This document shows positions 794 to 26,209 of a DNA stretch of 64,000 nt, one piece after another. Position 1 is the first letter of the stretch. The number at the start of each line of letters is the position of its first letter. A program made the translations under genes and the position numbers. This DNA comes from Oscillospiraceae bacterium (GTDB lineage Bacteria > Bacillota > Clostridia > Oscillospirales > QAMX01): the NCBI GenBank assembly GCA_015067675.1, contig SVMB01000005.1, positions 1 through 64,000 of the forward strand. Reading direction: 5' to 3'. The notes below the pieces were generated by a model. The model saw only the letters and a list, made by a program, of their open reading frames with translations, was not told the DNA's origin and searched no databases.

Positions 794-806
794 GGAGGAA
801 GGAAGT

Positions 807-1592: not shown

Positions 1593-1616
1593 TCACGGTT
1601 ATTTCGGCTGATTTTG

Positions 1617-1655
1617 CGGCGGCACACGTTTTTTGACGTGTGCCGCCGTTTTGTC
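1617..1655 (+). terminator. Rho-independent terminator of the amidohydrolase pair
   Basis: Perfect 13-bp stem (1617-1629 with 1636-1648), loop of six bases, followed by TTTTGTCT. It closes the upstream two-gene unit. Confidence 0.9.
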
Positions 1656-1678
1656 TGATCGGAAATCGTTTTCGGGGA

Positions 1679-1707
1679 TTGCGCAGACGCTGAAAAACGT
1701 GTATACT
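1679..1707 (+). promoter_or_regulatory. Sigma-A type promoter for the 907-aa enzyme gene
   Basis: TTGCGC at 1679-1684, a 17-base spacer and TATACT at 1702-1707, about 40 bases upstream of the start at 1750. Confidence 0.75.
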
Positions 1708-1749
1708 AGTGGCGATGTATCCCGAATACACGTAAGTGAGGTCATGGAC

Positions 1750-7310: not shown

Positions 7311-7328
7311 TTGTTCACAGAATTGACG

Positions 7329-7357
7329 TTGACCTGAAAGCCCTGCTGTGATACAAT
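7329..7357 (+). promoter_or_regulatory. Promoter of lgt
   Basis: TTGACC (7329-7334), 17-base spacer, TACAAT (7352-7357), 40 bases before the GTG start. Confidence 0.85.
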
Positions 7358-7396
7358 GAAACATACTGAAAAAATCAGGTCAGGGAGGATTTATCC

Positions 7397-8595: not shown

Positions 8596-11500
8596 ATGAA
8601 AAAACGCTTTATTCTGACTACCCTGCTGCTTGCGGCGCTCTTTGCGCTGTGCATGTCGGCATATGCGACGGATGATGACCTCTGGGTCGGCGGCGTCGGC
8701 ATGGCGGACGGCGATTATCTCGCAAACGGCGCGACGACGACAAGCACGACGCAGCCTTCCGGCGGCTATGCGTATTATAAGAATGGCACGCTGACGCTCA
8801 ACGGCTACGATAACGGCGGCGAGGCGTATAAGTATACCAACTACTACGGCAACAGCTACACCGCGATCTATTCGAAGCTTGCTTCCCTCAAAATCGTCCT
8901 TGTGGGCAATAACAGCCTGAAGTGTACCGTTAACACCACCGCCTACACCAACGCCAACGGCATCTGCACCGACGGTGACGTGAGCATCAGCGGATCCGGC
9001 ACGGTGAACATCACCGTCACCGCCACATCCACCGACGCCACCGCCGACACCATTGCCCGCGGAATCCGCGCCACCGGCATCATATCCATCAGCGGCGGCA
9101 GGGTGGACATCACCGCCACCGCCAGCGCCAGCGGCTCCAATGTTGTCGGCGCCGTTGGTGCCTACGGGATCGATGGCGACGTGAACATCACCGGCGGCAT
9201 GGTGAACATCACCGCCAGCGCCAGCGGCTCCAATGTTGTCGGCGCCAGCGGCATCTATACCAACGACGCGAGTATCAGCGGCGGCACGGTTGATATCACC
9301 GCCACTTCCAACAATGGCATTGCCTACGGCATCAACGCCTCCCCCGCCCCCTTCGCGAACACCTATGGCACAATCTCCATCAGCGGCGGCAGGGTGGACA
9401 TCACCGCTACCGCCACCGCCAGCGGCTCCAACACTCCCTACGCCTACGGCCTCAGCGCCAACAATGTGAGCATCTCCGGCGGCACGGTGGACATCACCGC
9501 CAGCGCCAGCGGCTCCAACAATAGCAGCGCCTACGGCATCTTCGCCAACGACTACTCCAACGCCAGCGGCACCATCTCCGTCAGCGGCGGCACGGTGGAC
9601 ATCACCGCCACCGCCAGCGCCAGCGGCTCCAACAATAGCAAAGCCTACGGCATCTTCGCCAACGACTACGCCACCGCCAGCGGCACCATCTCCATCACCG
9701 GCGGCGTGACCACGATCGACGCGGGTACGCAGGCGTTCAACAAGGCGCCCACGCTCACAAATACTATGGACTACCTGATGGGCAATGGTTTTACAGATCA
9801 GTTCGTCGTCATCGGCGCGAAGTCTCTGCAGCATAAGCACAGCTTCTCCGACGACTACGCCTTTGACGCCACCCACCACTGGCATCCCTGCACCGTGGAC
9901 GGCTGCTGGCTGCCCAACGAGGGCGCGTACTACGCCGCGCTGGATGACCCCAATGCCGATTACGGCGCGCACAATCCGTCTGATGACTGCGCTACCTGCG
10001 GCTATACCACCACCGCCGACGTCTGGGTGGGCGGTATGCCCCTGCAGGATGGGCAGTACGTGAGCAATGACGGCATTGTGACGCCGGTGAAGCCTACCGG
10101 CGGCTATGCGTATCTGTCGGAGGACGGCAAGACACTCACGCTCAACGGCTACGACAACGACGGTGCGGTGCGTGACTGGTACGACGACGACGCCGCGATT
10201 TATTCGAACGTCGAGCTTACGATCGAGCTTGTGGGCAAAAACAAGCTGAGCTCTTCGAAGCACGGCATTTTCGCCGACGACAACTTAGCGATCACCGGCG
10301 ACGGATCGCTTGAGAGCGACGCAAATAACCTTGGCATCCGCGCCGTCACATTAACGATCCGCGACGGCAAGATTGACATCAATTCCGGAAATTGGGGTAT
10401 CGTCAGCGAAGATTACGGCGTAACAATCGAGGACAGCGATGTGACGATCAATTCCGACAGCTACGGCATCTACGCCGAATCCGGCGAAGGCGACGTGACA
10501 ATTTCCGGCGGCACGGTGAAGATTAACACCGAGAGCGGTGAGGGTATCCGCAACGATGACCGCGACGTAATAATCTCCGGCGCAACGGTGGCCATCACCA
10601 CCGGCGGCAGCATCGGTATCAGTGCCGGTGCCGGTGTAACGATTTCCGATAGTACAGTGAATATCACCGCCGACGGCAACGGCATCAAAGCGGACGGTGC
10701 GGTAACAATCTCCGGCGGCTACGGCACCATCGTGGGCGAGATACAGGCGCTGAAGATCGGTGTCATCGACGACGGTGTGCTCACCATCGGCGACCGCATG
10801 GAGGTTCTGGGCAGCACCGATGAAAACGGCTCCGGCGCGAAGCCTTACGTCGAGAGCAAGCGCCGGGACTACCAGTACATCTGGTTCGCCCCCGCCACCT
10901 CTTCTCCCGCTGATCCCGATGATCCTACCACCCCCGCTGATCCCACCGTACCCACCATCACCAATCCCATCCCCGAGAATGCCACCGTCTCTGAGGACGG
11001 CACCGTGACCGTGCCCGCCGAGGGCGGCAGCGTGAGCTATCCCGCCACGTTCGGCGCGGGTGAGACGGTGACTGTGACCGTGACCCCCGACGAGCATGAA
11101 AAGATCGCAAGTGTGGTCATCAACGGCGTGGAAATGGGTACTTCCGGCGTGTATGTGATCGAGAACGTCACCGAAGCGCTGGATATCGAGGTCATTTTCG
11201 TCAAGGCGCAGTCCTTCATCGATGCGGCGCAGGGTCAGGAGCCCTCCGAGCCCGCGGTTCCCGCCTACGCAGGCTCCGCGCTGCGGTTTTACGACGTGAT
11301 GCCCTACAACTCCGCATACGACGCCATCAACTTCGTTGCCGACCGCGGTATCATGAACGGCACCGGCGTGGGTGAGTTCAGCCCCGAGGCAGCGCTGACC
11401 CGTTCTATGATGGCGACGATCCTCTGGCGCATGGAGGGTGAGCCGACGGTCTGGTACGGCGGCCAGTTCTCCGACGTCAAGGGTGGTCAGTGGTACTCCA

Positions 11501-11766
11501 CGCCCATCGCCTGGGCCAATGCCGCCGGTATCGTGGAAGGCTACGGCAACGGCGTGTTTGGTCTGAATGATTCTCTCACCCATGGTCAGCTCTGCGCCAT
11601 GCTCTATCGCTGGAACACCCGGTCCTATGGTGACATTGCCACCGCCTGGGCCTGGGCGCAGGCGAACGGTCTCTATGACGACCTCGCAGGCGTCAGCGCC
11701 GACGAGGCTGCCACCCGCGCCGGGATTGCGCAGGTGCTCATGGCCTTCGTCACCCGTGTGTGGTAA
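8596..11766 (+). CDS. SLH-domain cell-surface protein with beta-helix repeats
   Basis: 1056 residues from ATG 8596, chosen because AGGAGG (8583-8588) precedes it and a signal peptide starts there (MKKRF, hydrophobic core, cleavage near AYA-TD). Residues 27-400 hold stacked SISGG/VDITATASASGSN repeats typical of a parallel beta-helix. Residues ~414-472 carry a small His/Cys region (HHWHPC, CATCGY). The N-terminal block (WVGG...GGYAYY...LTLNGYDN) recurs from residue ~474, so the protein is internally duplicated. An Ig-like domain spans ~790-872. From ~894 to the end come SLH repeats, which anchor proteins to cell-wall polymers. Two similar genes nearby share leader and anchor. The ligand of the beta-helix part is unknown. 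Confidence 0.85.
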   Translation: MKKRFILTTLLLAALFALCMSAYATDDDLWVGGVGMADGDYLANGATTTSTTQPSGGYAYYKNGTLTLNGYDNGGEAYKYTNYYGNSYTAIYSKLASLKIVLVGNNSLKCTVNTTAYTNANGICTDGDVSISGSGTVNITVTATSTDATADTIARGIRATGIISISGGRVDITATASASGSNVVGAVGAYGIDGDVNITGGMVNITASASGSNVVGASGIYTNDASISGGTVDITATSNNGIAYGINASPAPFANTYGTISISGGRVDITATATASGSNTPYAYGLSANNVSISGGTVDITASASGSNNSSAYGIFANDYSNASGTISVSGGTVDITATASASGSNNSKAYGIFANDYATASGTISITGGVTTIDAGTQAFNKAPTLTNTMDYLMGNGFTDQFVVIGAKSLQHKHSFSDDYAFDATHHWHPCTVDGCWLPNEGAYYAALDDPNADYGAHNPSDDCATCGYTTTADVWVGGMPLQDGQYVSNDGIVTPVKPTGGYAYLSEDGKTLTLNGYDNDGAVRDWYDDDAAIYSNVELTIELVGKNKLSSSKHGIFADDNLAITGDGSLESDANNLGIRAVTLTIRDGKIDINSGNWGIVSEDYGVTIEDSDVTINSDSYGIYAESGEGDVTISGGTVKINTESGEGIRNDDRDVIISGATVAITTGGSIGISAGAGVTISDSTVNITADGNGIKADGAVTISGGYGTIVGEIQALKIGVIDDGVLTIGDRMEVLGSTDENGSGAKPYVESKRRDYQYIWFAPATSSPADPDDPTTPADPTVPTITNPIPENATVSEDGTVTVPAEGGSVSYPATFGAGETVTVTVTPDEHEKIASVVINGVEMGTSGVYVIENVTEALDIEVIFVKAQSFIDAAQGQEPSEPAVPAYAGSALRFYDVMPYNSAYDAINFVADRGIMNGTGVGEFSPEAALTRSMMATILWRMEGEPTVWYGGQFSDVKGGQWYSTPIAWANAAGIVEGYGNGVFGLNDSLTHGQLCAMLYRWNTRSYGDIATAWAWAQANGLYDDLAGVSADEAATRAGIAQVLMAFVTRVW
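8984..9711 (+). repeat. In-frame tandem repeats in SLH gene 1
   Basis: Degenerate coding repeats built on GGCACGGTGGACATCACCGC and CCAGCGCCAGCGGCTCCAA, with units of about 36-120 bases encoding GGTVDITA and SASGSNN-AYGIFAND blocks. The last two long units (9484-9711) are almost identical, suggesting recent unit duplication. Confidence 0.8.
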
Positions 11767-11779
11767 GTGAAATAACGAA

Positions 11780-11816
11780 GCCCCCGGAAGCAAACGCTTC
11801 CGGGGGCGGTTTTTTC
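11780..11816 (+). terminator. Terminator of SLH gene 1
   Basis: Perfect 12-bp stem 11780-11791 with 11796-11807, loop AAAC, then GGTTTTTT. Confidence 0.92.
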
Positions 11817-11854
11817 CTCACAGCGCCCAACGGGGAGCCGTGAGGGCGGGGGCG

Positions 11855-11883
11855 TTGACAGCCATCAGGCCGCGTGTTATACT
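11855..11883 (+). promoter_or_regulatory. Promoter of the beta-galactosidase-like gene
   Basis: Consensus TTGACA (11855-11860), 17-base spacer, TATACT (11878-11883). Confidence 0.88.
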
Positions 11884-11914
11884 GGAATCACAACAAACGA
11901 TGGGGGATTTTTAC

Positions 11915-13867
11915 ATGGTTACGAGCAAAATCAGCCGTGTGGGCGATCTGCTGGCCTTTGAGGTGAACGGAAAGCCTGCGATTCCTTACGGATATATGAG
12001 TTATCAGCCGACCTGTGCCGATTATGCGGGATTTCGCAAGGCGGGTGTGCGGCTTTATTTCACCGGCGTGTATGCGGGTGATCGCGGTATCAACACCTAC
12101 AGCGGTCTGCGGCCCTTCCGGCCCGGGTTCTGGAAAGCGCGGGATGTATTTGACTTCTCCGCCGCCGATGAGGATTTCCGTCTGATCGCGGGAGGCTCTC
12201 CCAGGGAGGGAACTGTCCCGGAGGGGCTCTTCATCATCCCACGGCTGATGCTGGAGCCGCCGTCCTGGTGGGAGGATGAGAATCCCGATGCGTTGGCGCG
12301 GGATTTTGAGGGCAAGAGCATGCACCAGAGCTATTCCTCCGAAAAGTGGTTTGCCGACACCATTGGTGCGATGGAAGCCTTTCAGGCGTGGCTTGTCGAG
12401 TCCGGCTGGGATGCGCACGTTGCGGGCTGGCATCTGGCCTGCGGCGCGACGGAGGAGTTCATGCGTCCGACGATTCATCCGCTGCAGTACACTGACTACT
12501 CCGGGGCATCAAAGCTTGCGTGGCGGGAGTATGTGCGGGAGCTTTTCGGCGGCGTGGCTGCGATGAATGCCGCGTGGGGCACGGACTACGCCTCCTTTGA
12601 CGAGATGGAGCCTGCGACGCCTGCGCAGCGGATGTATGCCGCGGATACGAATGGCGAGCGCAGCCCGATGGCGGCGGAGTACTGGCACTTCCACAGTGTG
12701 GAGAATGCCCGGGCGGTCTGCCGTCTTGCCCATGAGGCCAAGCGCATCACCGGCGGTGAGCGGGTGGTCGGCGCGTTCTTTGGTTACTGCGGGCTGCTGC
12801 GCGGTCACACGGCCACCGACATGGTGCTGCGGTGCCCGGATGTGGATTTCCTCGCCAGTCCCTTCTCCTACGGGCATGCCCGGGCGGCCGGTATCGACTG
12901 GCTTGTGGGCGGCCCTACCGGTTCCTGCCAGTTCCACGGCAAGGCGTGGTTTATGGAGGCCGACGTGCGTACGCATCTCTCGCGCTCCATCCGGGACTGC
13001 ATGTCCTTTGCCTATCCCGCCAATCACCACTACGACCTGCCTGTCTGGTACGGTCCCGACACGGAAGAATTATCGCTGCACCAGATGAAGAAGGCCTGGG
13101 CCAGATCCCTCTGCACGGGCTGCGCGATCTGGTGGTTTGACATGTGGGGCGGATGGTACCGCACGGATGCGATGATGGCGTTCCATGAAAAGGCGCGCGC
13201 CCTCTACGAGGAGGCGACGCTGGGCGGCGGGTACGTGTCGCGCTCGCAGGTGGCGGTTTTCCGCGACGAGCGGGAAGGTGAATGGAAGCTGGATGCTCGC
13301 AGCGGCGAGGTGATGGAGGCGCTTTCACGCACCGGTGCGGTCTACACGCAGTATTTATTATCCGATTTACCGGAGGTTTCTCCTGAACGGTACCGTGCGG
13401 TGATCATTGCCGGGGCGAAGGTCTGGACGCGTGCGCACGCTGAGGCGTTGAAAGCGTGGATGGCGGGCGGCCGCAGCGTGATCCTGATCGACTCGCCGGA
13501 GGCGGAGGCGGCGTTCTTCGACGAGGCCTGTGCCGTGCCTACCGGGGCGGACGAATCCGCCCGGGTGATGGTAAAGGCGGGGTATCAGCTCTACCGGGTG
13601 GAGTCTGGTGTCACGGCGGCGCAGCTCAGGGAGGCTTTCCTACTGGCCGGTGCGCATATATACAATTTCACCGAGGACATCATCTACGCTGCGGGCGACA
13701 TCGTGGCGATTCACGCGGCGTCCGATGGCATCAAGCGCATCACGTTACCGGTCAAGGGCGAGCTCTGCGAGGTATTTACCGGCGAGCGGCCGCGGATGAC
13801 GGATTTCTATGCGGATATGACGATGGAAAAGGGCGAAACGCGGATTTTTCGGGTGACAGAGCGGTAA
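11915..13867 (+). CDS. Cytosolic beta-galactosidase-like glycoside hydrolase (GH42-type)
   Basis: 650 residues. ATG 11915 is preferred over upstream in-frame codons because GGGGGA lies 7-12 bases ahead and a strong promoter ends at 11883. No signal peptide. The order resembles GH42/GH-A proteins: an N-terminal TIM barrel (NGKPAIPYGYMSYQP, later AGWHLACGATEEFM, where the Glu would fit the acid/base position after strand 4, and AWFMEADVRTHL, where Glu fits the nucleophile), then a Rossmann-like trimerisation domain (VIIAGAKVWTRAHAEALKAW) and a C-terminal beta domain. It stands alone between two S-layer genes with its own promoter. Substrate not determinable. Confidence 0.7.
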   Translation: MVTSKISRVGDLLAFEVNGKPAIPYGYMSYQPTCADYAGFRKAGVRLYFTGVYAGDRGINTYSGLRPFRPGFWKARDVFDFSAADEDFRLIAGGSPREGTVPEGLFIIPRLMLEPPSWWEDENPDALARDFEGKSMHQSYSSEKWFADTIGAMEAFQAWLVESGWDAHVAGWHLACGATEEFMRPTIHPLQYTDYSGASKLAWREYVRELFGGVAAMNAAWGTDYASFDEMEPATPAQRMYAADTNGERSPMAAEYWHFHSVENARAVCRLAHEAKRITGGERVVGAFFGYCGLLRGHTATDMVLRCPDVDFLASPFSYGHARAAGIDWLVGGPTGSCQFHGKAWFMEADVRTHLSRSIRDCMSFAYPANHHYDLPVWYGPDTEELSLHQMKKAWARSLCTGCAIWWFDMWGGWYRTDAMMAFHEKARALYEEATLGGGYVSRSQVAVFRDEREGEWKLDARSGEVMEALSRTGAVYTQYLLSDLPEVSPERYRAVIIAGAKVWTRAHAEALKAWMAGGRSVILIDSPEAEAAFFDEACAVPTGADESARVMVKAGYQLYRVESGVTAAQLREAFLLAGAHIYNFTEDIIYAAGDIVAIHAASDGIKRITLPVKGELCEVFTGERPRMTDFYADMTMEKGETRIFRVTER

Positions 13868-14087: not shown

Positions 14088-17000
14088 ATGAGAAAGTCTA
14101 TTCTGAGCATGATGCTGGCAATGGCTATGGTAATGAGCTTGCTGACCGGCGTTGCATTTGCGACTGGCGAAGTGGCGGAGGTCAATGGAACCAGATATCC
14201 AACCTTGGCCGCTGCCGCTGCTGCAGCAAGCAACGGCGATACCATCACTTTGTTGGATTCCGTGACAGAAAACGTTTCTTTACCTGCCGGAGTAACGATT
14301 AATGGTAATGGCAAGACAGTTACGGGAACCATCACTGCTGGCGGAGATTTGACGTTTTCTGGTTATACGAAGGTTACAGCATTAAATACAGGTTACTATA
14401 ACCGTGTATTTACCATTGTAGAAGGTGCAACGCTGGAAATTACCGGAGAAGGAAGAATGACCGTGGGCTATGGTAATACTTTCAATATTACCGGCAGCCT
14501 TACAAATGCCAAGACAGCCAATAAGGAAACCGTTACTCCCTCTTTGATCATTCCCGGAGGTATTTCCATTACCGGTGCCAATGATGCGGTTTTCAATGTG
14601 ACTAATGCCTATGTTAAGCTTGGTAACACTTCGAGTAAGAATAGTGTTGCTGACGGTGAGTTTGATATTAATTTTACTAACAGTATTGTTGAATTTACAC
14701 ATCAGTTTACCCTTTCCGCGCCCACCAATGGCAACACACCCGTGTTTAATGTTAATATTCAAGACAGCGTAGTAAGTGCGGTAGCAAAAATTTGCATTGC
14801 AGCCCCTGACGCCAATGTGGTAATTGACAATTCTGACGTTGAAACCCAAAATAACCTCCATAATAGCGGCGAGATTACCCTCAGGAATAGTGCGTCTCTT
14901 ACTGGTGGTATGATCCAATTTGGCGAGAACGGTGGTAATGCGGGTACGATTATCGTTGATAATTCCACACTGACCATCAGAAACAGCAACGCAGCTCATG
15001 CCATGGACGGTAACGGCACCGGTGTACTTAAGGTCGTTAACGGAGGTATGGCTGATATTGACCATATTACGCGAAGCGAGATCAGTGTTGATGGCACTGA
15101 TTCTAAGCTGACCGCGAAGGGAAGTATCACATCCAGTACGGTTGAACTGAAAAATGGTGCGACCGCAGAAGTGGATACTCTTGACAGCAACAGTCATGTG
15201 GGTGTGGATTCTTCCAGTACACTCAAAGGCACTGGAGATAATGATTCTCCAAGCGGTAGTCCGACGGTGACTGTTGATCCTGTAGCTAAGGTTGACGGTA
15301 ATTTTTTTGAGAATCTCACCGATGCATTAGAGAAGCTCACAAGCGACTCTAAACTTACCCTTTTAAAAAATGTGGCACTGACCAACACTCTGACCGTTCC
15401 TGCCGGAAAGACCCTGACGATTGACGGCAATGGTCACAAGATAACCCCCGCTTCGGGTTTCGTGGTAGATGGTCATAATGCAGCTCTTGTTCTGGAGCCT
15501 GATACTGGTGAGTACACCGTTAAGAATCTGACCTTTGAGGGTTTCAGTGGCCTGACCCGTGTGGTTCGCGCCAACTTTGGGAAGATTACGATCGAAAATT
15601 GTGTGTTCAACGATAACTCTGTCTCGGAAGGCGTTATCACTTCCACTTCCGCTGATCTTGACGTTATAAACTGCGAGTTTACCGGTAACACCATCTCCGG
15701 TTATGGAGTCATCGACATCGGTTCCGATGTCAGCAATGGTACAGATAAGGTTGCTAACATCACCGGCAGCAGATTTACCGGTAACAGTGCCGGTACTGCC
15801 GTGGTCTATCTGGGATCTTCTGCTAATGTAACCGACAACTATTTCAGCGGCAATAAGCATACCGGCAACAATGAAAACGGTGCAGCTATTCTGGCTGGTC
15901 CTTACACCGGAAACATGGACTACACCATCAACATCACCGAAAACGCTTTTGATAATGCTATGGGTGAAAAGCCCGCTGTCTTTGCGGAGGACTGGTCAAG
16001 CCTCGGCTCCACTACCGCGTTTGACCTCAGCTCCAACTACTGGGATGGTGTAAAGCCTGTTGAGGGCATGGCATACAAGACCAGCGGTGATAACCCGAAT
16101 GTGAAACTGGATGACTACTACGATACCTATACCTTTGATGCTGATGGCAATCTGGTGCTGAGCAATACACCTGTTCCCCCTTCCTCCACGTCCCCCTCCG
16201 AAACCATCGTCACCGTTCCCGTAATCGGCGACTCCAACACCGTCCATGTTGAGGCCGAGATCACTGAGGATACCGCTACTGTTCTGCCGGTGAATCCCGG
16301 CGAAATCGATGCCGCGCTCTCCGGCAACGATGCCACCGGCGTTGTGACCGTCGACCTGTCCGCTGTCAGCGAGACCGTCACCACCGTCAATCTGCCCATC
16401 ACCCTGATCGAGGACGTCGTTGCGGCGGCTGAGCACGCCCATAACGACACCGAGCATCTGGCCATCGCCCTGCCCGCCGGTACCGTCACCCTTGACGACG
16501 TTACCATGCGCACTATCATCGAGCAGGCCGAGGGCGAGGATGTCCAGCTTGTGCTTGAGACCAACGAGCCTGATCAGCTTAACGACGCCCAGGCCGGTGC
16601 TCTGGCCGGTGAGGACGTCCACGGCACCATCGAAGTCTACTTTGTCTGCAACGAGACCGGCCGCCGTATCTCCGACTTCAATGGCGGCGAGGCCGTGCTG
16701 AAAGTTCCCTTTGAGATTCCGGCGGGCAAGGTCGCCAAGGGCTTCTCTGTCTGGTATGTGGACGATTTCGGCCGCAAGACCAAGCATGAAACCTGGCACG
16801 AGAATGGTCACATCCATTGGAAGACCGGCCATTTCTCCGATTACGTCATCATCTACGACGCGGCTGACGCAAACGGCCCGAGCTTCATCGACGCCATTGA
16901 GACTCCCGTGGCTCCTGTGGAGCCCGAGGTTCCCGCCTACATCGGCAATACGCTCCGCTTCAACGACGTCATGCTCTATAACTCTGCCTACGACGCCATC

Positions 17001-17438
17001 AACTTCGTTGCCGACCGTGGTATCATGAACGGTACCGGAGCCGCTCAGTTCAGCCCCGACGCTGACCTCACCCGTGCGATGATGGCGACGATCCTGTGGC
17101 GTATGGAAGGTCAGCCCACGGCATGGTACAACGGTCAGTTCTCCGACGTCAAGGGCGGTCAGTGGTACTCCTCCGCCATTGCCTGGGCCAATGCCGCCGG
17201 TATCGTGGAAGGTTACGGCAACGGCGTGTTTGGTCTGAATGACAGCCTGACCCATGGTCAGCTCTGCGCTATGCTCTATCGCTGGAACACCAGATCCTAC
17301 GGTGACATCGACACCGCCTGGAACTGGGCGCAGGCCAACGGCCTGTATGCCGACCTCGCGGGCATCAATGCCGACGAGGCTGCCACCCGTGCCGAGATCG
17401 CCGAAGTCCTGATGGCCTTCGTCCTCCGCGTCTGGTAA
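14088..17438 (+). CDS. SLH-domain cell-surface protein, mosaic composition
   Basis: 1116 residues from ATG 14088 behind AGGAGG. Signal peptide (MRKS, hydrophobic core, cleavage near AFA-TG). Residues ~26-690 are beta-helix-like repeats rich in Asn, Gly, Thr and Val. A Pro/Ser/Thr linker (VPPSSTSPSE) and a globular beta domain follow, then SLH repeats from ~954 to the end that closely match those of the gene at 8596, down to the sequence GNGVFGLNDSLTHGQL. The first two thirds are AT-richer with mixed codons; from about 16190 the codons become the GC-rich type of the neighbours. That suggests an imported passenger domain joined to a resident anchor. Ligand unknown. Confidence 0.85.
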   Translation: MRKSILSMMLAMAMVMSLLTGVAFATGEVAEVNGTRYPTLAAAAAAASNGDTITLLDSVTENVSLPAGVTINGNGKTVTGTITAGGDLTFSGYTKVTALNTGYYNRVFTIVEGATLEITGEGRMTVGYGNTFNITGSLTNAKTANKETVTPSLIIPGGISITGANDAVFNVTNAYVKLGNTSSKNSVADGEFDINFTNSIVEFTHQFTLSAPTNGNTPVFNVNIQDSVVSAVAKICIAAPDANVVIDNSDVETQNNLHNSGEITLRNSASLTGGMIQFGENGGNAGTIIVDNSTLTIRNSNAAHAMDGNGTGVLKVVNGGMADIDHITRSEISVDGTDSKLTAKGSITSSTVELKNGATAEVDTLDSNSHVGVDSSSTLKGTGDNDSPSGSPTVTVDPVAKVDGNFFENLTDALEKLTSDSKLTLLKNVALTNTLTVPAGKTLTIDGNGHKITPASGFVVDGHNAALVLEPDTGEYTVKNLTFEGFSGLTRVVRANFGKITIENCVFNDNSVSEGVITSTSADLDVINCEFTGNTISGYGVIDIGSDVSNGTDKVANITGSRFTGNSAGTAVVYLGSSANVTDNYFSGNKHTGNNENGAAILAGPYTGNMDYTINITENAFDNAMGEKPAVFAEDWSSLGSTTAFDLSSNYWDGVKPVEGMAYKTSGDNPNVKLDDYYDTYTFDADGNLVLSNTPVPPSSTSPSETIVTVPVIGDSNTVHVEAEITEDTATVLPVNPGEIDAALSGNDATGVVTVDLSAVSETVTTVNLPITLIEDVVAAAEHAHNDTEHLAIALPAGTVTLDDVTMRTIIEQAEGEDVQLVLETNEPDQLNDAQAGALAGEDVHGTIEVYFVCNETGRRISDFNGGEAVLKVPFEIPAGKVAKGFSVWYVDDFGRKTKHETWHENGHIHWKTGHFSDYVIIYDAADANGPSFIDAIETPVAPVEPEVPAYIGNTLRFNDVMLYNSAYDAINFVADRGIMNGTGAAQFSPDADLTRAMMATILWRMEGQPTAWYNGQFSDVKGGQWYSSAIAWANAAGIVEGYGNGVFGLNDSLTHGQLCAMLYRWNTRSYGDIDTAWNWAQANGLYADLAGINADEAATRAEIAEVLMAFVLRVW

Positions 17439-17527: not shown

Positions 17528-18463
17528 TTAGCGGAACAGCCGCGCCGGGTTTTCGATCAGCATCCGGTCAAGCTCCGCCTGCGAGACGCCCCGCGCACGC
17601 AGAAGCTCGCAGAACGGGCCGAGGACGACCAGAAACGTGTTGACGTTCTTCTCAAGCTCCGAGGCGTAGGTGCGATCACCGAAGTCGAGGAAGGCTGCAC
17701 CGTCCCGGGAGAGCAGGATCCGGTCGCCGTAGCCACGGTCAAGAAGACGGCACAGCGTATCCGCCTGATCCTCCCGGGCGTAGATCCGGTCAAAGCCGAT
17801 GTAAACCCCGCGGGCAAGCAGCGACGTAAGATAGTCCACGTCCTGCGTGTCGCTGGTGTGCCCCACAATCACGTGGGTGAGATCCGCGCCCGCGCGCTCG
17901 AGCACGTCAAGCTGGGCAGGAGCAGTCTGGTGCCGGTGAGCGTTGTGGGCATAGAGGGGAAGATGGGTCTCCCGCTGGACGATGCCCATGGTCTCGATGC
18001 TTAAGGCGTTGATGGAGGTCAGCCCCGGATGGTCGGTGGCACATTTGAGCAGCCCCGGAAGTACCGGCTGAGCGGTGAGATAGGTGTTTTCCATGCCGCG
18101 GGTGCACTCGTCGATGAAGAAGCGGGCCAGCTCCTCCGGTTTCTTTCCGGACATGAAGCTGCGGTCGTCCCAGTAAAGGCCGGTGGAGGCCACGATGTTG
18201 ACGCCGCTGCGGCGGGAGACTTCCACCAGCATCCCCACGTCGCGGCCCAGATCGACGGGAGTGCCGTCAAAGACGGTGGAGAGGCCGAAGCGCTCTTTTG
18301 CCTCGGTGAGCCGGGTCACGGCCAGCTCGATGAGCGCTTCGCGGTTATACCAGCGGTCGCCGAAGGCGCGGGCGAAGTCGCCGGAGCCGACGAAGATGTG
18401 CTCATGTCCCAGCGTAACGCCCAGAGCGTCGGGGGAAATGGGACCTAAAACGGTGTTGACCAT
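17528..18463 (-). CDS. Phosphotriesterase-family metal hydrolase (probable lactonase)
   Basis: 311 residues; ATG 18463 behind AGGAGG. The family's binuclear metal site is recognisable: GHEHIF (HxH on strand 1), His in VIVGHTSDT and in YAHNAHRHQT, and Asp in LLSRDGAAF on strand 8. Characterised relatives hydrolyse lactones, including sugar lactones, or phosphotriesters. It is the last gene of the glycyl radical enzyme operon, 21 bases after the activase, so hydrolysis of a lactone or ester intermediate in that pathway is a reasonable inference. Length is normal for the family. Confidence 0.82.
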   Translation of the reverse strand: MVNTVLGPISPDALGVTLGHEHIFVGSGDFARAFGDRWYNREALIELAVTRLTEAKERFGLSTVFDGTPVDLGRDVGMLVEVSRRSGVNIVASTGLYWDDRSFMSGKKPEELARFFIDECTRGMENTYLTAQPVLPGLLKCATDHPGLTSINALSIETMGIVQRETHLPLYAHNAHRHQTAPAQLDVLERAGADLTHVIVGHTSDTQDVDYLTSLLARGVYIGFDRIYAREDQADTLCRLLDRGYGDRILLSRDGAAFLDFGDRTYASELEKNVNTFLVVLGPFCELLRARGVSQAELDRMLIENPARLFR

Positions 18464-18484
18464 GGTTTGATTCCTCCTGAGATG

Positions 18485-19330
18485 TCAAAAGGTGCAGCCT
18501 GCCGCCATTTCACGCAGCCGGGCAAGGATTTCGGCCTCCGGCGGGGAAAATCGGGTCAGCTCACGGTTTAAAGCGGCGTATTTGTGCTCGCCGAGGGTGT
18601 GATACGCAAGCACTTCCACGCGCTCGGGGTGTACATGGGAGGAAAGCCAATCGCAGAGCGCGGCAAAAGCCGCCTCATCGTCGTTGACGCCTGCCATCAC
18701 CGGCATACGGATCCATATCCGCGCACCGTGAAGACCAAGCCGGGCGAGATTATCAAGGATACGCTCGTTTCCCACACCAGTATACGCCCGGTGACGCTCG
18801 GAGTCAAACAGTTTTACGTCATAGAGGAATAAATCCGTGTAGGGAAGCACGCGCTCAAAGGTTTCCCACGGCACGTGCCCCGCCGTGTCCACCGCCGTGT
18901 GAATGCCTGCTTCCCGGCAGCGGCGCAGGAGCTCTTCGAGGAAATCCGGCTGCAGCATACACTCGCCGCCGGAAAAGGTCACGCCGCCGCCGGTGTTTTC
19001 ATAAAACGGGAGGTCGGAAAGGATATCCTCCATCACCTCGTCGGCGGTGTATGCCCGCCCGGAGATTTTGCGTGCATCGTGGGGGCACAGCAGCGCACAT
19101 TTCCCGCAGAGGATGCAGCCGCCGGGGGAGGGGCAGACGGCGCGGCATTTGCCGCAGCCGGTGCACTTGTCGTGGTAGAGAAGCATTTCGGGATCAAAGC
19201 GCTGACTTTCGGGATTGTGGCACCAGGCGCAGCGCAGATTGCAGCCCTTGAAGAATACCACCGTGCGCACGCCGGGGCCGTCCACGAAGGAGCCGTGCTC
19301 GATGTCAAAAAGAATGCCGGATGATTTCAT
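18485..19330 (-). CDS. Glycyl radical enzyme activase (radical SAM)
   Basis: 281 residues. The start at 19330 is chosen over upstream in-frame ATG because AAGGAG precedes it and the protein then begins like known activases (MKSSGILFDIEHGSFVDGPG). It carries the radical SAM cluster motif C-x3-C-x2-C (GCNLRCAWCHNPES) and an inserted two-cluster ferredoxin domain (KCTGCGKCRAVCP, GCILCGKCALLCP), as in activases of dehydratase-type glycyl radical enzymes. It would abstract a hydrogen from the C-terminal glycine of the enzyme encoded at 20102-22231. Located in the same operon, 10 bases after the SDR gene. Confidence 0.93.
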   Translation of the reverse strand: MKSSGILFDIEHGSFVDGPGVRTVVFFKGCNLRCAWCHNPESQRFDPEMLLYHDKCTGCGKCRAVCPSPGGCILCGKCALLCPHDARKISGRAYTADEVMEDILSDLPFYENTGGGVTFSGGECMLQPDFLEELLRRCREAGIHTAVDTAGHVPWETFERVLPYTDLFLYDVKLFDSERHRAYTGVGNERILDNLARLGLHGARIWIRMPVMAGVNDDEAAFAALCDWLSSHVHPERVEVLAYHTLGEHKYAALNRELTRFSPPEAEILARLREMAAGCTF

Positions 19331-19340
19331 AGCCGGCTCC

Positions 19341-20105
19341 TTACAGCGTTGCGGCCTTGTCGCCGCCATCGGCGACGACGGTGTGACCGCAGATGATCTC
19401 GCCGTAGTCGCTCATGAGGTAGAAGGCAAGCTCGGCGATCTCGTCGGGACGGATGAATCGCCCGATGGCGTGACGCGGGTAGGGCTGGTTGATGTCGTGG
19501 GCGTACCGGGCGATCATGGGCGTGAAGGTCGCGCCGGGGGCGATGCCGTTGATGATGATGCCGTTGCAGCCTTCCCGGTTGCCAAGGGCGCGGGTCCATT
19601 TGATGACGGCGAGCTTTGATGCACCGTAGCTGCCGACGATGCCCATGCAGGCGGCGTTGGAGGCGATGTTGAGGATGTTGCCGCGCACGGAGCGCGCCTT
19701 CATCCAGTCGATCTCGTTGCGCATGAGGAAGAACGCGGCCTTGAAGTTGGTGTCGGTGAGGGTGTCCCACTCTTCCTCGGTGATGTCCCAGGGTTCATAT
19801 CCCCGGCCGGTGTAGGCACCGGTACCCAGGGCGGCGGCGTTGACAAAGCCCGAAAGACCGCCCATGAGCTGCTCACATTCGGTGAAAAAAGCGTCGTGAC
19901 GGGCGATATCGGTGATATCAAAGACCCGGTAGGTCACGTTTTCGGAGCCGATTTCCCGGCAGGCGTCGGCAAGCTTTTCTTCCGTGCGCCCGGTGATGAC
20001 GACGCTTGCTCCGGCTTCAGCCAGCCGTGCGGCGATGGCCTTGCCGATGCCGGAGCCGCCGCCGAATACGATGATGTGATCGTTTCGCAGCCGCATGATA
20101 CTCAT
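19341..20105 (-). CDS. SDR family NAD(P)-dependent oxidoreductase
   Basis: 254 residues. Classical SDR: cofactor motif FGGGSGIG near residues 14-21, NAA in the middle, Ser in NIASNAA and the YGASK active-site Tyr/Lys pair, then a C-terminal HTVVADGGD. Its ATG overlaps the TGA of the glycyl radical enzyme gene (ATGA at 20102-20105), which implies translational coupling and a joint pathway. It probably reduces or oxidises the carbonyl or alcohol that is substrate or product of the glycyl radical enzyme. The specific substrate is not visible. Confidence 0.9.
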   Translation of the reverse strand: MSIMRLRNDHIIVFGGGSGIGKAIAARLAEAGASVVITGRTEEKLADACREIGSENVTYRVFDITDIARHDAFFTECEQLMGGLSGFVNAAALGTGAYTGRGYEPWDITEEEWDTLTDTNFKAAFFLMRNEIDWMKARSVRGNILNIASNAACMGIVGSYGASKLAVIKWTRALGNREGCNGIIINGIAPGATFTPMIARYAHDINQPYPRHAIGRFIRPDEIAELAFYLMSDYGEIICGHTVVADGGDKAATL

Positions 20106-22231
20106 CCTTTCTGTACGGTGCGGTTGATGATCTCCCGCTGATGCTCGTCGGGCAGACCCACGAAGGACGCGGAGTAGCCGGATACGCGCACCTTCAGACT
20201 GCGGTAGTTCTCGGGGGTTTTCCGCGCGGCTTCCAGCTCTTCACGGGAAACGTAGTTGAGCTGGACGTGGATGCCGCCCATGCGGAAGTACTGCTCGATC
20301 ATGCGGCAGACCGATTCAAAGTAGCGGTCGTCCCGGATGAGTACCTCGTCGATGAGCATATTGCAGACGTTGGGGCCGCAGAGGATGCCGTTGGGATCCA
20401 TCTGGGCAAGGGATTTCATCAGCGCAAGCATTCCCTTTCTGTCCTTACCTCCCGCCTGACCGGTGCCGACCATCAGTCCGTCGCCGTCAAAGCGTCCGTC
20501 GGGGGTGGCGGGCATCATCGCGCCGTACTTCATGTGATGGGGATTGTATCCGGCGAGAGTGCCGATGAGGATGCGGGCGTCACCGGTGAGACGGCGGTCA
20601 CGTGTGAGCTCATAGAGGTCGGTGGTGTAGCGGCGGGCCATGCCGTCGGAGAGGGGATCGTTGTTGCCGAAGAAGCGGCCGGTCTTGAGAATCTCCGTGC
20701 GCAGGTCGGGGTCTGATTCCCAGTTGGAGCGCAGGACGTCGATGAGATGCGCCATGGAGGTGCGCTGCTCGTCAAAGACGAACTGCTTGACCATGGACAG
20801 GGAGTCGATGACGCAGGTGATGCCCATGAGGTTGAAGCCGCCGATCTTCTTTTCGCAGCCGAAGCGGTTGGGCGGGGTGGCGTTTTCGATGCAGCCGTCC
20901 AGGAGGAACGCCGAGAGGACGGAAGCGTCCTTGGCACGCATGGCGTTGAACTTCCCGGCGTAGAAGAGGATGCGCTCGATGTCGCGCGCCAGCTCCTCGC
21001 GGAAGATGGCGTAGAACGCGTCGAAATCCCGGCAGGCGATGACTTCGTCTGAGCGGTTGTAGAGGGTGTTGACCAGACTGCGAACGGCGTTGGAGGTGCA
21101 GCCGCCGATCCAGAGCGCACCGGGGAAGGAGGGCTCGTTGCAGCCGACCATGGTGTACTTCACCGCATCCTCGTAGGAGAAGCCGGAGATGTTCATGAGC
21201 GCCTTGATGCGGGGCTCGTCGCTGACGAAGGCAAAGCGCTTGTTCTTGTCGTGCCGCTCACAGTCCAGCATGAAGTGCAGGACTTCAAAGGGCGTTTTGT
21301 TCGTCCAGCGCAGGGAGATGGCGGGACGGCGGGTGTCGATGGACATGAGCGCCTCCACCATGAGCCGGGAGAGATCGGTGAAGCCGTCCTCACCGTCGGG
21401 GGTGTAGCCGCCGATGGCGAAGTGACACTCGGCAGAGCGGTCGGCATTGCCGTTTCCGACCGGGGTGAAGTTGGAGAGATGGACGAAAATCTCGGCGATG
21501 AGATCACGCGCCTCGTCGCGGGTGATGGCACCCGACTCGATATCCCGGCGGTAGAGATCCCACAGGGCGCGGTCGATGGTGCCCACGCTGTCGGGCAGGA
21601 ACTGGAAGCACATGATGATGGACTGCAGACCCTCGTAAAAGCTCCGGGCGGGCTTGGCGGGTACCTGACGGCAGGCGGCAGCCAGACGTAAGAGCTCCTG
21701 CTTTCGCACGTCGTCGGTACACGCGGCGGCTGCCGCCTCGTGGGCATCGGCGCACTTCTCGCTCCAGGCGATGATGCCCCGGCAGACAGTCTCGAAAGCG
21801 TCGAGCATCGTGAGCTTATCGGTGTCATCGGCAAACCGGACGCGGGCATCGCGGATGGCGGCAAGCCGCCCCTCGATGCCGTGGTCGAGGATGAAGCGGT
21901 AGTTGGGCGCGGAGTGCTGCCACTCAAAGGTGACGAGCTGCTCGACGTACTTGCGGTAGTAGATTGCCTGGGCGGCGCGGATGTGTTTGTGATTGGTGCG
22001 GGTAAAGACATCGGCAGGAACCTCGGCAGCGCCCAGACGGAGCATACCGGTGAAGCGGTTTTCCTCGGTGAGGTAGACAGGCTGGGCGACGATGTATTCG
22101 GCAATACGCTTGGCATTGAACATAGGTTCCGGTAAAGCCAGATCAAGGCCGTCGTATTCGACGGGGATGCTGGGGGCGATGAGATCCTGTTCACGGCTCA
22201 GAGCCGCGAGACGGGTAACACGTTCGGACAT
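20102..22231 (-). CDS. Pyruvate formate-lyase-like glycyl radical enzyme, dehydratase-type active site, unassigned substrate
   Basis: 709 residues from ATG 22231 (AGGAGG 9 bases ahead; the frame is open further upstream but without support). The C-terminal glycyl radical loop reads RVSGYSASF and the active-site cysteine lies in MVGCNEPSFPG, i.e. Cys-x-Glu rather than the Cys-Cys of pyruvate formate-lyase. That points to the C-O, C-N or C-S bond-cleaving dehydratase-like branch of the family. It is somewhat shorter than the usual 780-850 residues. First gene of an operon with SDR, activase and lactonase and divergent from an AraC regulator, which speaks for an inducible catabolic route. None of the well-known subclasses is identified. 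Confidence 0.92.
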   Translation of the reverse strand: MSERVTRLAALSREQDLIAPSIPVEYDGLDLALPEPMFNAKRIAEYIVAQPVYLTEENRFTGMLRLGAAEVPADVFTRTNHKHIRAAQAIYYRKYVEQLVTFEWQHSAPNYRFILDHGIEGRLAAIRDARVRFADDTDKLTMLDAFETVCRGIIAWSEKCADAHEAAAAACTDDVRKQELLRLAAACRQVPAKPARSFYEGLQSIIMCFQFLPDSVGTIDRALWDLYRRDIESGAITRDEARDLIAEIFVHLSNFTPVGNGNADRSAECHFAIGGYTPDGEDGFTDLSRLMVEALMSIDTRRPAISLRWTNKTPFEVLHFMLDCERHDKNKRFAFVSDEPRIKALMNISGFSYEDAVKYTMVGCNEPSFPGALWIGGCTSNAVRSLVNTLYNRSDEVIACRDFDAFYAIFREELARDIERILFYAGKFNAMRAKDASVLSAFLLDGCIENATPPNRFGCEKKIGGFNLMGITCVIDSLSMVKQFVFDEQRTSMAHLIDVLRSNWESDPDLRTEILKTGRFFGNNDPLSDGMARRYTTDLYELTRDRRLTGDARILIGTLAGYNPHHMKYGAMMPATPDGRFDGDGLMVGTGQAGGKDRKGMLALMKSLAQMDPNGILCGPNVCNMLIDEVLIRDDRYFESVCRMIEQYFRMGGIHVQLNYVSREELEAARKTPENYRSLKVRVSGYSASFVGLPDEHQREIINRTVQKG

Positions 22232-22307
22232 GGTAAAATACCTCCTGGATGAGATGCTACCATGATACCGCAGAGCGGGGAGAGAGTAAATGCATCTTTT
22301 GGGACTT

Positions 22308-22345
22308 TTGCACTTTTTGACACACTGTTGCAAACTTTTTCCACG
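22308..22345. promoter_or_regulatory. Direct repeat, candidate AraC-family operator
   Basis: Two imperfect direct repeats, TTGCACTTTTTGACAC from 22308 and TTGCAAACTTTTTCCACG from 22328, are 20 bases apart, close to two helical turns. They lie in the intergenic region between the glycyl radical operon and its AraC regulator, and the second one coincides with the regulator's -35 box. Operator role is inferred. Confidence 0.55.
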
Positions 22346-22356
22346 TGTGATACAAT
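22328..22356 (+). promoter_or_regulatory. Promoter of the AraC regulator gene
   Basis: TTGCAA (22328-22333), 17-base spacer, TACAAT (22351-22356), 15 bases before ATG 22372. Confidence 0.75.
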
Positions 22357-22371
22357 GAATCCGGTGATGAT

Positions 22372-23154
22372 ATGGAAAAAGAGTTCGTGATAACCGGCAT
22401 AGCCCGGGTGATCTACGTGGGAAAAGAGGAATATACGGCCCCAAAGACGCAGTTTAAGGGTAAGCTTTACCACAATGAGCTGATTTTTCACCTTTCGGGA
22501 CGCGCACAGGTGCGCTTTAACGGAAAAGTGCTGCCAACCGGCCCCAATACCCTGCGGTTTCTCCCGAAGGGCGATAACCGGGAGTATATCGTGGAGCGGG
22601 AGATGCCGGGCGACTGCATCGATGTCTTTTTCGACACGGACAGGCCGATATCGGCGGAGGCGTTTGTGCGGAAGATGCCGGAAAACAGCGGACTGGACGC
22701 GCTGTTCCGCAAAATCTTCGCAGTCTGGGTAGGCCGCGAGGAGGGGTACAAATTTGCCTGTATGTCGCTTCTGTACCGCATCTTTGCCCAGCTGCAGGAT
22801 GAGCGGTATCTCCCCGAGCAGCAGTATCAGGCCATCCGCCCGGCGATTGACTGGATCGCCGAGCACTTTAACGATCCGGAGCTGTCCATGCAGATGCTGG
22901 CCCAGCGCTGCGGCATCAGCCAGTCCTGGCTGCGCAGGCTCTTCATCGCCCGCTTCGGCGTGCCGCCGAAGAAGTATATCCTGCAGCGCAGGATCAACTA
23001 CGCCTGCGACCTGCTCAGATCAGGGCTTTACAGCGTCACGCAGATTGCGGAGCTCTGCGGCAGCGGCAGCGTGTATTTTTTCAGCCGCCAGTTCCGGGAG
23101 TATGTGGGCCTGAGCCCCACGGAGTACGTAAAACGCTATCAGTCGTCCAAATAA
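22372..23154 (+). CDS. AraC family transcriptional regulator (of the glycyl radical enzyme operon)
   Basis: 260 residues. The N-terminal ~140 residues look like a cupin-type sensor (LIFHLSGRAQVRFNGK, PTGPNTLRFLPKG). The C-terminal ~100 residues contain the two helix-turn-helix motifs: LAQRCGISQSWLRRLFIARF and the family signature ending in FFSRQFREYVGLSPTEY. It is divergent from the operon starting at 22231, with 140 bases between, so it most likely controls that operon in response to its substrate. A bidirectional terminator follows. Confidence 0.9.
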   Translation: MEKEFVITGIARVIYVGKEEYTAPKTQFKGKLYHNELIFHLSGRAQVRFNGKVLPTGPNTLRFLPKGDNREYIVEREMPGDCIDVFFDTDRPISAEAFVRKMPENSGLDALFRKIFAVWVGREEGYKFACMSLLYRIFAQLQDERYLPEQQYQAIRPAIDWIAEHFNDPELSMQMLAQRCGISQSWLRRLFIARFGVPPKKYILQRRINYACDLLRSGLYSVTQIAELCGSGSVYFFSRQFREYVGLSPTEYVKRYQSSK

Positions 23155-24133: not shown

Positions 24134-26152
24134 TCAGCAAAGGGGTTCGCCGCGGAAGCGTACGGCCAGATGTTTGTCGGGCGCGGTGGGAAGATAGGAG
24201 ATGTCAAGATGGGCAAGCTTGCCGTCCCGGACTTCGGCCTCGACGATGGCGCCGCCACGGGCCAGCAGCCGGAAGGAGACGTTGTCCAGTTCAGGGTGCG
24301 CCGCCGGGAGAATGTCGATGGTCTTGCCGTCGCAGGAGAGCAGCATCTCGTTGACGGAGGTGAGGAGAACGCCTGCGGCGGTGGAAAACCAGGGACGCAG
24401 CCGGACTGCATCCTCGTTGATCTCCCAGACCTCGGAGAATGCGCCCAGAGAGGAGAGTCCCTGCTGGAGATTTTCCCAGGCAAGATCGGCGCGACCAAGC
24501 CTTGCAAAGGCGATGGCCTTCCAGCAGGCGTACCAGCAGGCTACCTTTTTGCCCTGACGGTACATATTGCCGAATCCCTGCTCGGAGGCGGTGAAGTCCA
24601 GCATCGCCGCGATCTGCCGGGGATCGTCCCGGGCGATCACGTCGAAGGGATAGGTGCCGGTAAAGACGGCGATGCTCTTCTGGGGGCAGCCGTCGAAGGG
24701 AATGTACTTTTCACCGTCATGGGGGAGCGTACGGCGCAGCGCGGCGGCGGCATCGAGGCACTCGGCCCGATAGGCCTCGTCCTCGCCCAGCAGCTCAGCG
24801 GCTGCGGCGCAGACCTCCAGCGTGCGGATGACGCCGCAGGAGGAGAAGTAGGGATTGAATACCGACGCGCCCAGACGCTCCAGATCGGCGCATTTCCAGA
24901 CGAATGTCTGCCCGTCGGGGTAACGGCAGACGCAGTTGAGGGTGTAGAACTTGGCGCAGGCGCGAATCATCGGGTAATAGCGGCGCAGGGCGTCCATGTC
25001 GCCGGTGAACTCGTAGTAATCCCAGGCGCCCAGTGCAACCAGCGCCATGTGGAAGATGTGATCCCGCCAGTAGCTGGGGAAGGATGCCTCATCGCCCCGC
25101 TCTTCACTGGTCCAGGGGAAGCGTGCCTGCTGGGTATCGGGATTCTGCAGGGAGTCGGTGGCGCGGCGGATGGCCTTGGGCAGAGTGGCAAGCCGGAATT
25201 CCGGGATGCGGGAGGCAAGATCTGCGCGGCCTGACTGCAGCAGGGCAAAATAGGCGTAATATTCGTCAAAGGGGAAGAATTTGCCGTACCAGTGGGAGTT
25301 GTTGATGCCGATGGCGCAGGACCAGCGGGTCATGGAGCAGCGCAGATGATAAAGCGCCGTGGCGTAGGCGTTGTCCACCGCTTCGATGCCGGTGCGCACA
25401 TAGCCTTCGGCGTGATACGCCTGCCAGAAGGCGGAGCATTCCGCCTGCAGCGCATCAAAACCTGCGGCGCGGATGTGCGCCTGTACAGCATTGAGCTTTT
25501 CACGGTAATCGGGGGCGTCATCCTCACGGAAGAGGGAGTCATCGAGGAGATAATAGCAGCAGACGGCGTCGCCGTCGGCGGGGGTGAAGGAAAAGACCGC
25601 CCGGTTGTCGGCGAAAGTGATTTCGGAGGGGGTATCGGTGAGGAGTACCGAGCGGGAGAAATAGCGGTCGTAGGCGCGGATGTCTGCGTCGATGGTGATG
25701 GAATCGGCGGTGATCTCATGGGTGAGGGAGAAGGCCGCGTCGGTCATGGACGGATCAAGATTGAGGGTGAGCTCAGCCTTGGGCGGAACGCCGGTGAAGG
25801 TGCGGCGCACGGCGAAGAGGTTGTGGGAGGGGTGGACGAAATATTCCGCGCGCACGGAGAAGCCGCCGGGGTAGACGCATTCGGCGGTGGTGATACCGGC
25901 GCGTTCATCAAAATCCTGGGTGAAGGAGACCGGTTCTTCCCCGCAGTCAAAGCCCAGAATGCCCCAGAGAATGAGCGGGAGGCGGGAGGAAGTGCCGCGT
26001 CTGCCGGCACGGAAAACGCCGAGCCCGGAGGGAAAGCCCTGGTCCGAGACGCGGTCGGAGCCTGCGTAGTTGGGCGTTACGGCGATGTCGCCGTTTGCCA
26101 GCAGCGGGAAGAAGTAGTCATGACGCTGCTCGCGGCTGTTATATTGTGTCAT
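24134..26152 (-). CDS. Cytosolic (alpha/alpha)6-barrel glycosidase, GH65/GH95-like
   Basis: 672 residues from ATG 26152, which follows GGGGGTG; the longer open frame upstream would cross the promoter region and is not supported. No signal peptide. The N-terminal ~240 residues form a beta-sandwich-like domain (FFPLLANGDIAVTPNYAGSD), followed by a helical barrel with the pattern of clan GH-L/GH-M/GH-Q enzymes (WYGKFFPFDEYYAYFALLQS, SYWRDHIFHMALVALGAWDY, AFSEVWEINEDA). The Asp/Glu of PFDEYY and EVWEIN are plausible catalytic residues. Family cannot be fixed between GH65, GH78 and GH95. Co-transcribed with an EamA transporter. Confidence 0.65.
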   Translation of the reverse strand: MTQYNSREQRHDYFFPLLANGDIAVTPNYAGSDRVSDQGFPSGLGVFRAGRRGTSSRLPLILWGILGFDCGEEPVSFTQDFDERAGITTAECVYPGGFSVRAEYFVHPSHNLFAVRRTFTGVPPKAELTLNLDPSMTDAAFSLTHEITADSITIDADIRAYDRYFSRSVLLTDTPSEITFADNRAVFSFTPADGDAVCCYYLLDDSLFREDDAPDYREKLNAVQAHIRAAGFDALQAECSAFWQAYHAEGYVRTGIEAVDNAYATALYHLRCSMTRWSCAIGINNSHWYGKFFPFDEYYAYFALLQSGRADLASRIPEFRLATLPKAIRRATDSLQNPDTQQARFPWTSEERGDEASFPSYWRDHIFHMALVALGAWDYYEFTGDMDALRRYYPMIRACAKFYTLNCVCRYPDGQTFVWKCADLERLGASVFNPYFSSCGVIRTLEVCAAAAELLGEDEAYRAECLDAAAALRRTLPHDGEKYIPFDGCPQKSIAVFTGTYPFDVIARDDPRQIAAMLDFTASEQGFGNMYRQGKKVACWYACWKAIAFARLGRADLAWENLQQGLSSLGAFSEVWEINEDAVRLRPWFSTAAGVLLTSVNEMLLSCDGKTIDILPAAHPELDNVSFRLLARGGAIVEAEVRDGKLAHLDISYLPTAPDKHLAVRFRGEPLC

Positions 26153-26178: not shown

Positions 26179-26190
26179 GCACATATGTGC
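26179..26190. promoter_or_regulatory. 12-bp palindrome upstream of the GH65/95-like gene
   Basis: Perfect GCACATATGTGC directly beside a minus-strand TATACT-like -10 (plus 26173-26178), 27 bases before the start codon. A repressor or activator site overlapping the promoter is inferred. Confidence 0.5.
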
Positions 26191-26209
26191 GGAAAAGTAC
26201 AGACGAAAA

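Follow-up and report, generated by a model that had tools for sequence, protein, structure and literature searches.

An operon of an uncultured Oscillospiraceae bacterium of the gut (assembly GCA_015067675.1, contig SVMB01000005.1; positions 1 to 64,000 were analyzed and are called the window) encodes an oxygen-sensitive glycyl radical enzyme (GRE) which, judged by sequence comparison, represents a new subfamily, forming a clade of its own outside the defined subclasses. The operon is located on the minus strand and contains the genes for the GRE, a short-chain dehydrogenase/reductase (SDR), a radical S-adenosylmethionine (SAM) activase and a phosphotriesterase-family (PTE) hydrolase in this order, and a gene for an AraC-family regulator is oriented divergently on the plus strand (Table 1). 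The best explanation is a catabolic cassette, inducible and under local regulation, with a new eliminase-type GRE as the central enzyme, which would perform a C-O elimination on a polar substrate, after which the SDR would reduce the carbonyl product. A probability of about 0.5 is given to this reading. In a preliminary description of the same DNA, the five genes, their order, the GRE length of 709 amino acids (AA), the GCNE and RVSGYSASF motifs, the ATGA coupling and the two-ferredoxin activase had been listed; all were found as described, and each gene assignment is backed by Pfam and NCBIfam.

The protein belongs to the GRE superfamily according to its radical loops, its fold and the cognate activase encoded in the same operon. 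The glycyl loop RVSGYSASF is intact, and the C-terminal loop of the RVxG[FWY] type is combined with a Cys loop in the middle of the protein, as in the superfamily. An AlphaFold model calculated from 46 clade sequences had a predicted local distance difference test score of 91.4 and a predicted TM score of 0.90. Its match to solved GREs extended over almost the entire chain, with Z scores of 35-36, at which propanediol dehydratase, HpsG, glycerol dehydratase (GDH), HypD and others were tied. Using Z scores and Foldseek, the fold matches were headed by propanediol and glycerol dehydratases, HypD and other eliminases, with many ties.

Relatives were searched in 197 genomes of the order, which yielded six full-length proteins with 40-43% identity besides the GRE itself, one of which is a further copy encoded by the genome of the window. 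When 84,980 species genomes were scanned, 99 relatives were retrieved, mostly from metagenome-assembled genomes (MAGs) of herbivore-gut Clostridia and a few from genomes labelled Kiritimatiellae or Verrucomicrobia; eight of them share 60-69% identity with the window GRE. In a careful tree, to which YbiW and PflD had been added, the clade stands alone on a long branch with a support of 100/100 and includes none of the known GREs, and a quick tree agrees; HPAD, BSS and HplG were outside the reference set of the trees and were compared by profile and fold only. All residue counts given below refer to 46 clade members and all neighborhood counts to 77 loci.

None of the 46 members reached the cut-off of an NCBIfam subclass model, and the best E-value, 3.6e-93, was obtained with the general PFL2-3 model. 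For the window GRE, the best subclass score was 240 bits, at cut-offs near 1000, and the identity to the aligned known subclasses was 21-29%. The following subclasses were rejected individually. HypD (NF043068) scored 219 bits against a cut-off of 1100, whereas genuine HypD members from the order reach 1400 bits. The choline trimethylamine-lyase CutC (TIGR04394) scored 198 bits against 1050, and His106 and Glu268 replace its Asp216 and Phe395. The 3-sulfopropanediol dehydratase and sulfolyase HpfG/HpsG scored 240 (NF048011) and 185 bits (NF048009) against 1000. Pyruvate formate-lyase (PFL; TIGR01255) scored 69 bits against 994, and GCNE holds a single Cys instead of the Cys-Cys pair. The arylacetate decarboxylases HPAD and IAD scored 140 bits against 1150 (NF033715) and 180 bits against 1100 (NF033718), respectively. 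For glycerol and 1,2-propanediol dehydratase, Asp447 and Tyr339 of GDH align to G376 and E268. Alternatively, the GRE could be an orthologue that has drifted away from one of the known subclasses (diol, hydroxyproline, choline, isethionate, sulfopropanediol or anhydrosugar-phosphate), with which it shares fold and loops. In view of the low identity, the scores far under the NCBIfam cut-offs, the fully supported separate clade and the changed substrate-contact residues, this is hardly credible. The check named beforehand, placement inside a defined subclass, was run by tree and profiles and did not refute the earlier statement that the gene combination matches none of the well-known subclasses.

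Around the reaction center, the radical machinery appears standard and the substrate pocket appears rebuilt, with residue roles deduced from the alignment. The Cys-x-Glu motif of eliminases is present (C364-N-E366). At the site of E268, nearly all aligned relatives have an aromatic residue facing the substrate, and the clade has Glu or Gln. D214 lies in a loop ahead of strand 1 which is about eight residues shorter than in eliminases, and in the window GRE the position of D447 in GDH is occupied by Gly. R308, R332 and Y562 are likewise invariant in the clade. His at the H106 site is common to the aligned C-O cleaving enzymes GDH, propanediol dehydratase, HypD, YbiW and PflD, and therefore argues for a hydroxyl leaving group. 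This His (H160) is essential in HypD (PMC7077986), and the equivalent residues are Asp216 in CutC and Gln193 in IslA (PMC8473560).

The same pocket could suit an eliminase with an amine or amide nitrogen as leaving group, acting on a substrate derived from an amino acid or dipeptide, with the acidic pocket binding the cation and an M20 dipeptidase-like enzyme of related operons cutting the amide first. Genes of this type (PepV/Sapep-like) are co-transcribed in 10/77 clade loci compared to one among the other genes, an enrichment which is less independent because the M20 query was drawn from the clade loci themselves. The gain of Glu268 and Asp214 would fit such a substrate, and C-N bonds of choline and D-hydroxyproline are cleaved by known GREs. 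The window operon, however, has no M20 gene, and the C-N cleaving CutC has Asp instead of His at the H106 site, so that C-N cleavage is regarded as rather doubtful and C-O elimination is preferred.

The gene neighborhood shows which parts of the cassette are constant. The divergent AraC gene adjoins the GRE operon in 59/77 loci and an activase is present in 52/77 clade operons, many of the remaining loci being cut by contig ends; divergent regulator and activase define the module. In some clade operons (L069, positions 10085-12157; L088, positions 5735-7726), a second, different GRE gene follows the first and precedes the activase gene, and a single activase may serve two GREs in such operons. 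The genes for SDR and PTE are real but optional partners. SDR genes occur in 15/77 loci and make up 15 of 128 operon neighbors compared to 3 of 836 other genes (p = 2e-11), and PTE-type genes occur in 7/77 loci (7/128 operon neighbors vs. 0/836 other genes), with only 28-35% identity to the window PTE. CapA-like genes were found in five loci. The nearest orthologues mostly have GRE and activase only (L044, L046, L049, L072, and L047 as far as the contig reaches). Conserved SDR and lactonase neighbors, which had been named beforehand as support for a separate subclass, were thus confirmed in part: the SDR is significantly linked, but both genes are missing from most loci, which tempers the pathway proposed in the preliminary description.

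Two unlike SDR types were distinguished. The type of the window lies downstream of the GRE gene in L048, L069, L105, L111 and L115, and these proteins are 70-78% identical to the window SDR; the other type lies upstream in ten loci. The SDRs of L105 and the window share 78% identity, yet the GREs only 42%, so the two genes have not consistently traveled as a pair. The ten loci with the SDR gene ahead of the GRE gene would agree with an inverted order of reactions, in which an alcohol is oxidized first and the GRE then acts on the keto compound, and sequence cannot tell the direction in which an SDR works. A fermenter gains more from reducing a carbonyl product, though, and in known pathways reductases come after GREs, such as pyrroline-5-carboxylate reductase after HypD and alcohol dehydrogenases after diol dehydratases. 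The inverted order is consequently considered unlikely, and reduction after elimination is retained.

The intergenic region between the AraC and GRE genes contains an operator-like palindrome, and the consensus common to such regions is TTTGTRCCGAAAAGTRCAAA. The core AAAGTRYAAA was found in 15 of 30 intergenic regions with an AraC protein close to that of the window, whereas shuffled sequences gave a mean of 0.125 and a maximum of 2, and the other strand gave 0. Apart from the window copy at 22307-22323, the genome contains no exact match, for which reason the regulator looks local; in the search for a wider regulon, genomic matches with two mismatches did not exceed the level of the reversed-pattern control. 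The conserved divergent AraC gene and the operator-like site support a cassette of inducible design, in line with the inducible pathway predicted earlier. A copy with two mismatches was seen at 26187-26203 (plus strand) of the window, just upstream of the -10-like TATACT of a GH95/GH65-like gene (24134-26152, minus strand). This gene might be co-regulated, which is a weak lead as matches with two mismatches are at control level.

Table 1. Features of the GRE locus (feature; position in the window; strand; remark)
PTE-family (amidohydrolase) hydrolase, 311 AA, last operon gene	17528..18463	-	Pfam PF02126, 167.7 bits
Radical SAM GRE activase, 281 AA, two extra ferredoxin-type clusters	18485..19330	-	TIGR02494, 321 bits, cut-off 174
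SDR, 254 AA	19341..20105	-	Pfam adh_short_C2, 139 bits; GxxxGIG and S-Y-K motifs
GRE, 709 AA	20102..22231	-	Pfam PFL-like 252 bits, Gly_radical 70 bits
Codon of G685, glycyl radical site, RVSG[YF]S	20177..20179	-	Invariant in 46/46 clade members
Codon of E366, Cys-x-Glu motif	21134..21136	-	Glu in 45/46; aligns with eliminase Glu
Codon of C364, thiyl radical site, GCNE	21140..21142	-	Invariant in 46/46 clade members
Codon of E268, position of GDH Y339, HypD F340, CutC F395, IslA W374	21428..21430	-	Glu in 41/46, Gln in 5/46
Codon of D214, shortened loop, near GDH H281 and HypD D278	21590..21592	-	Asp in 46/46
Codon of H106, position of GDH H164 and HypD H160	21914..21916	-	His in 46/46
Shine-Dalgarno sequence AGGAGG of the GRE gene, perfect site	22241..22246	-	Ahead of the GRE ATG at 22231
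Operator-like palindrome GTGTCAAAAAGTGCAAA in the AraC-GRE intergenic region	22307..22323	-	Core AAAGTRYAAA
AraC-family regulator, divergent, 260 AA, C-terminal AraC helix-turn-helix (HTH)	22372..23154	+	Pfam HTH_18, 66.6 bits

From these data, the following pathway is proposed. The AraC protein would sense a metabolite and switch on the operon via the palindrome between the divergent genes. By homology, the activase would use SAM to generate the radical on G685, from which it would be passed to C364, and the C364 thiyl radical would take a hydrogen atom from the substrate. E366, H106, E268 and D214 are candidates for proton handling and for holding the substrate. Water, as the C-O leaving group, would be expelled from the neighboring carbon to give a carbonyl compound, which the co-translated SDR would reduce with NAD(P)H, disposing of electrons as well. 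Where present, the PTE-type hydrolase may act on the substrate or product at an ester, lactone or comparable bond. The product is probably not a volatile toxic aldehyde, as no gene for a bacterial microcompartment shell protein (PF00936) was detected in the genome. Our guess is that the substrate comes from plants or the host, exceeds glycerol and choline in size and is probably polar, with hydroxyl or amino groups; it might be a sugar derivative.

Several observations weigh against this pathway. The database scan made use of the motifs GCNE and EWQH, so that part of their invariance is due to selection, although tblastn over the genomes of the order recovered both motifs without such selection. 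The N-methyl-hydroxyproline dehydratase 8id1, which cleaves a C-O bond, has Glu instead of His at the H106 site; no literature on N-methyl-hydroxyproline GREs was found. The replacement of D447 and Y339 of GDH by Gly and Glu, respectively, implies that substrate binding, and perhaps the chemistry, differ from those of diol dehydratases. As most loci have neither SDR nor PTE gene, carbonyl reduction in cis is not obligatory. The absence of microcompartment shell genes is not final at 73% completeness of the genome. Furthermore, the assignment of Cys-x-Glu to dehydratase- or lyase-type GREs in the preliminary description is correct for the eliminases, but the motif is not exclusive to them, since the decarboxylases HPAD (Cys503/Glu505) and IAD (Cys500/Glu502) contain it as well (PMC9248008). 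A decarboxylase or another C-C cleaving GRE would share this motif, and the Z score of the arylacetate decarboxylase structure 7e7l is tied with those of the eliminases. The profile scores separate the two groups, with eliminases first and decarboxylases near the bottom, and the His at the H106 site fits C-O cleaving enzymes. Decarboxylation is for these reasons very unlikely, and an eliminase acting on a C-O bond is kept as the preferred reading.

Concerning the accessory genes, the SDR start overlaps the GRE stop by four bases (ATGA), and an inner ATG of the activase gene at 19330 lies 10 bases past the SDR stop. No solved SDR relative was found at an E-value of 1e-30. The activase matches Radical_SAM and Fer4 in Pfam and has two Fer4-type Cys clusters. 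In the PTE hydrolase, the metal ligands of the binuclear site are complete (HxH, the Lys which is carboxylated in the family, His, His and Asp). None of the lactonase models of NCBIfam reached its cut-off for this protein, and the phospho-furanose lactonase model scored 63 bits against 630. Beside the operon, a gene at 14088-17438 of the window (plus strand) codes for a large secreted protein in which S-layer homology repeats are combined with a beta-helix.

The genome of the window (G000) contains about 25 GRE genes (26 PF02901 matches at an E-value of 1e-10), including those of L024-L043. A related genome (G152; 92% complete, 2% contamination) has 25 GRE matches, other selected genomes have 9-20, and for most genomes of the order a loose count gives 1 to 4. 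In the quick tree, the GREs of the own genome, PFL and the clade member L020 aside, group neither with the references nor with the clade. Literature searches for GRE expansion in ruminant MAGs and for GRE counts per genome returned nothing relevant. The roughly 25 GRE genes suggest that the bacterium makes its living from radical eliminations on numerous compounds. Tentatively, the clade could perform an elimination of a type new to GREs on a substrate class used by no known GRE, with Glu in place of the usual aromatic residue that packs against the substrate and a second acid in the remodelled loop. In that case, herbivore-gut Clostridia, with an arsenal of more than 20 GREs per genome, would have many such unexplored branches, of which the clade is one.

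Among the other GREs, two are fused in a single frame to an AraC-type HTH domain (L134, positions 987-3575, plus strand, contig C83 of the own genome; L130, positions 230-2887, plus strand, contig C108 of G152). The HTH_18 scores are 81 and 71 bits and the PFL-like scores 408 and 437 bits, plus Gly_radical, i.e., the GRE part is complete. The fusion occurs in two genera with 55% identity, and the orthologue in G112 (L132) is without HTH. Such a fusion is rare, and DNA binding by a GRE would be highly unusual. In L027, L033 and L036 of the own genome, and in L050, L063 and L086, a Cys directly precedes the radical Gly (RVCGW or RLCGW), and the Cys loop is GCYE. Unusual loops are frequent among the GREs of this genome; in further paralogues RIGGY or RLWGV was seen, with LCQD, GCWD and GCNW among the Cys loops.

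Radical steps of GREs shape gut chemistry by way of trimethylamine, p-cresol, skatole and sulfide. The clade is widespread in herbivore-gut MAGs and, with its own regulator, activase and reductase, is a compact and testable system, in which the AraC protein and the operator-like site offer a second route to the inducer. To the extent that the tools can show it, neither the subfamily nor its active-site signature nor the regulator-operator module has been described before, whereas the GRE fold, the radical chemistry and the gene types are known.

Compared to known systems, the window GRE resembles 1,2-propanediol dehydratase (5i2a, Roseburia inulinivorans) and B12-independent glycerol dehydratase (1r8w) in the fold (Z 35-36), the Gly and Cys loops, the Cys-x-Glu motif and the His at the H164 site, and their 26-29% identity is among the highest found. 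It differs from both by Gly for D447, Glu for Y339, the loop shortened by about eight residues and RVSG for RVAG, and the genome, at 73% completeness, yielded no microcompartment gene. HypD (6vxc) is similar in fold (Z 35.4), the Cys-x-Glu motif, the His at the H160 site and possibly an Asp in the D278 region, but the identity is 25%, and F340 and Y450 of HypD are not kept. CutC and the isethionate sulfite-lyase IslA share the fold and the radical machinery; they have Asp216 and Gln193, respectively, where the clade has His106, and F395 and W374 where it has Glu268. The 1,5-anhydrohexitol-6-phosphate enzymes YbiW and PflD (8id7, 8id0) share the GRE fold and the His at the H106 site, but with 22-23% identity they fall into separate clades, and their phosphotransferase system, phosphatase or aldolase neighbors are absent at the window operon. 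Finally, GRE homologues without an assigned reaction but with their own activase, including aminoacyl radical enzymes, have been described from gut MAGs (PMC11528403); in contrast to the aminoacyl radical enzymes, the clade of the window keeps Gly at the radical site.

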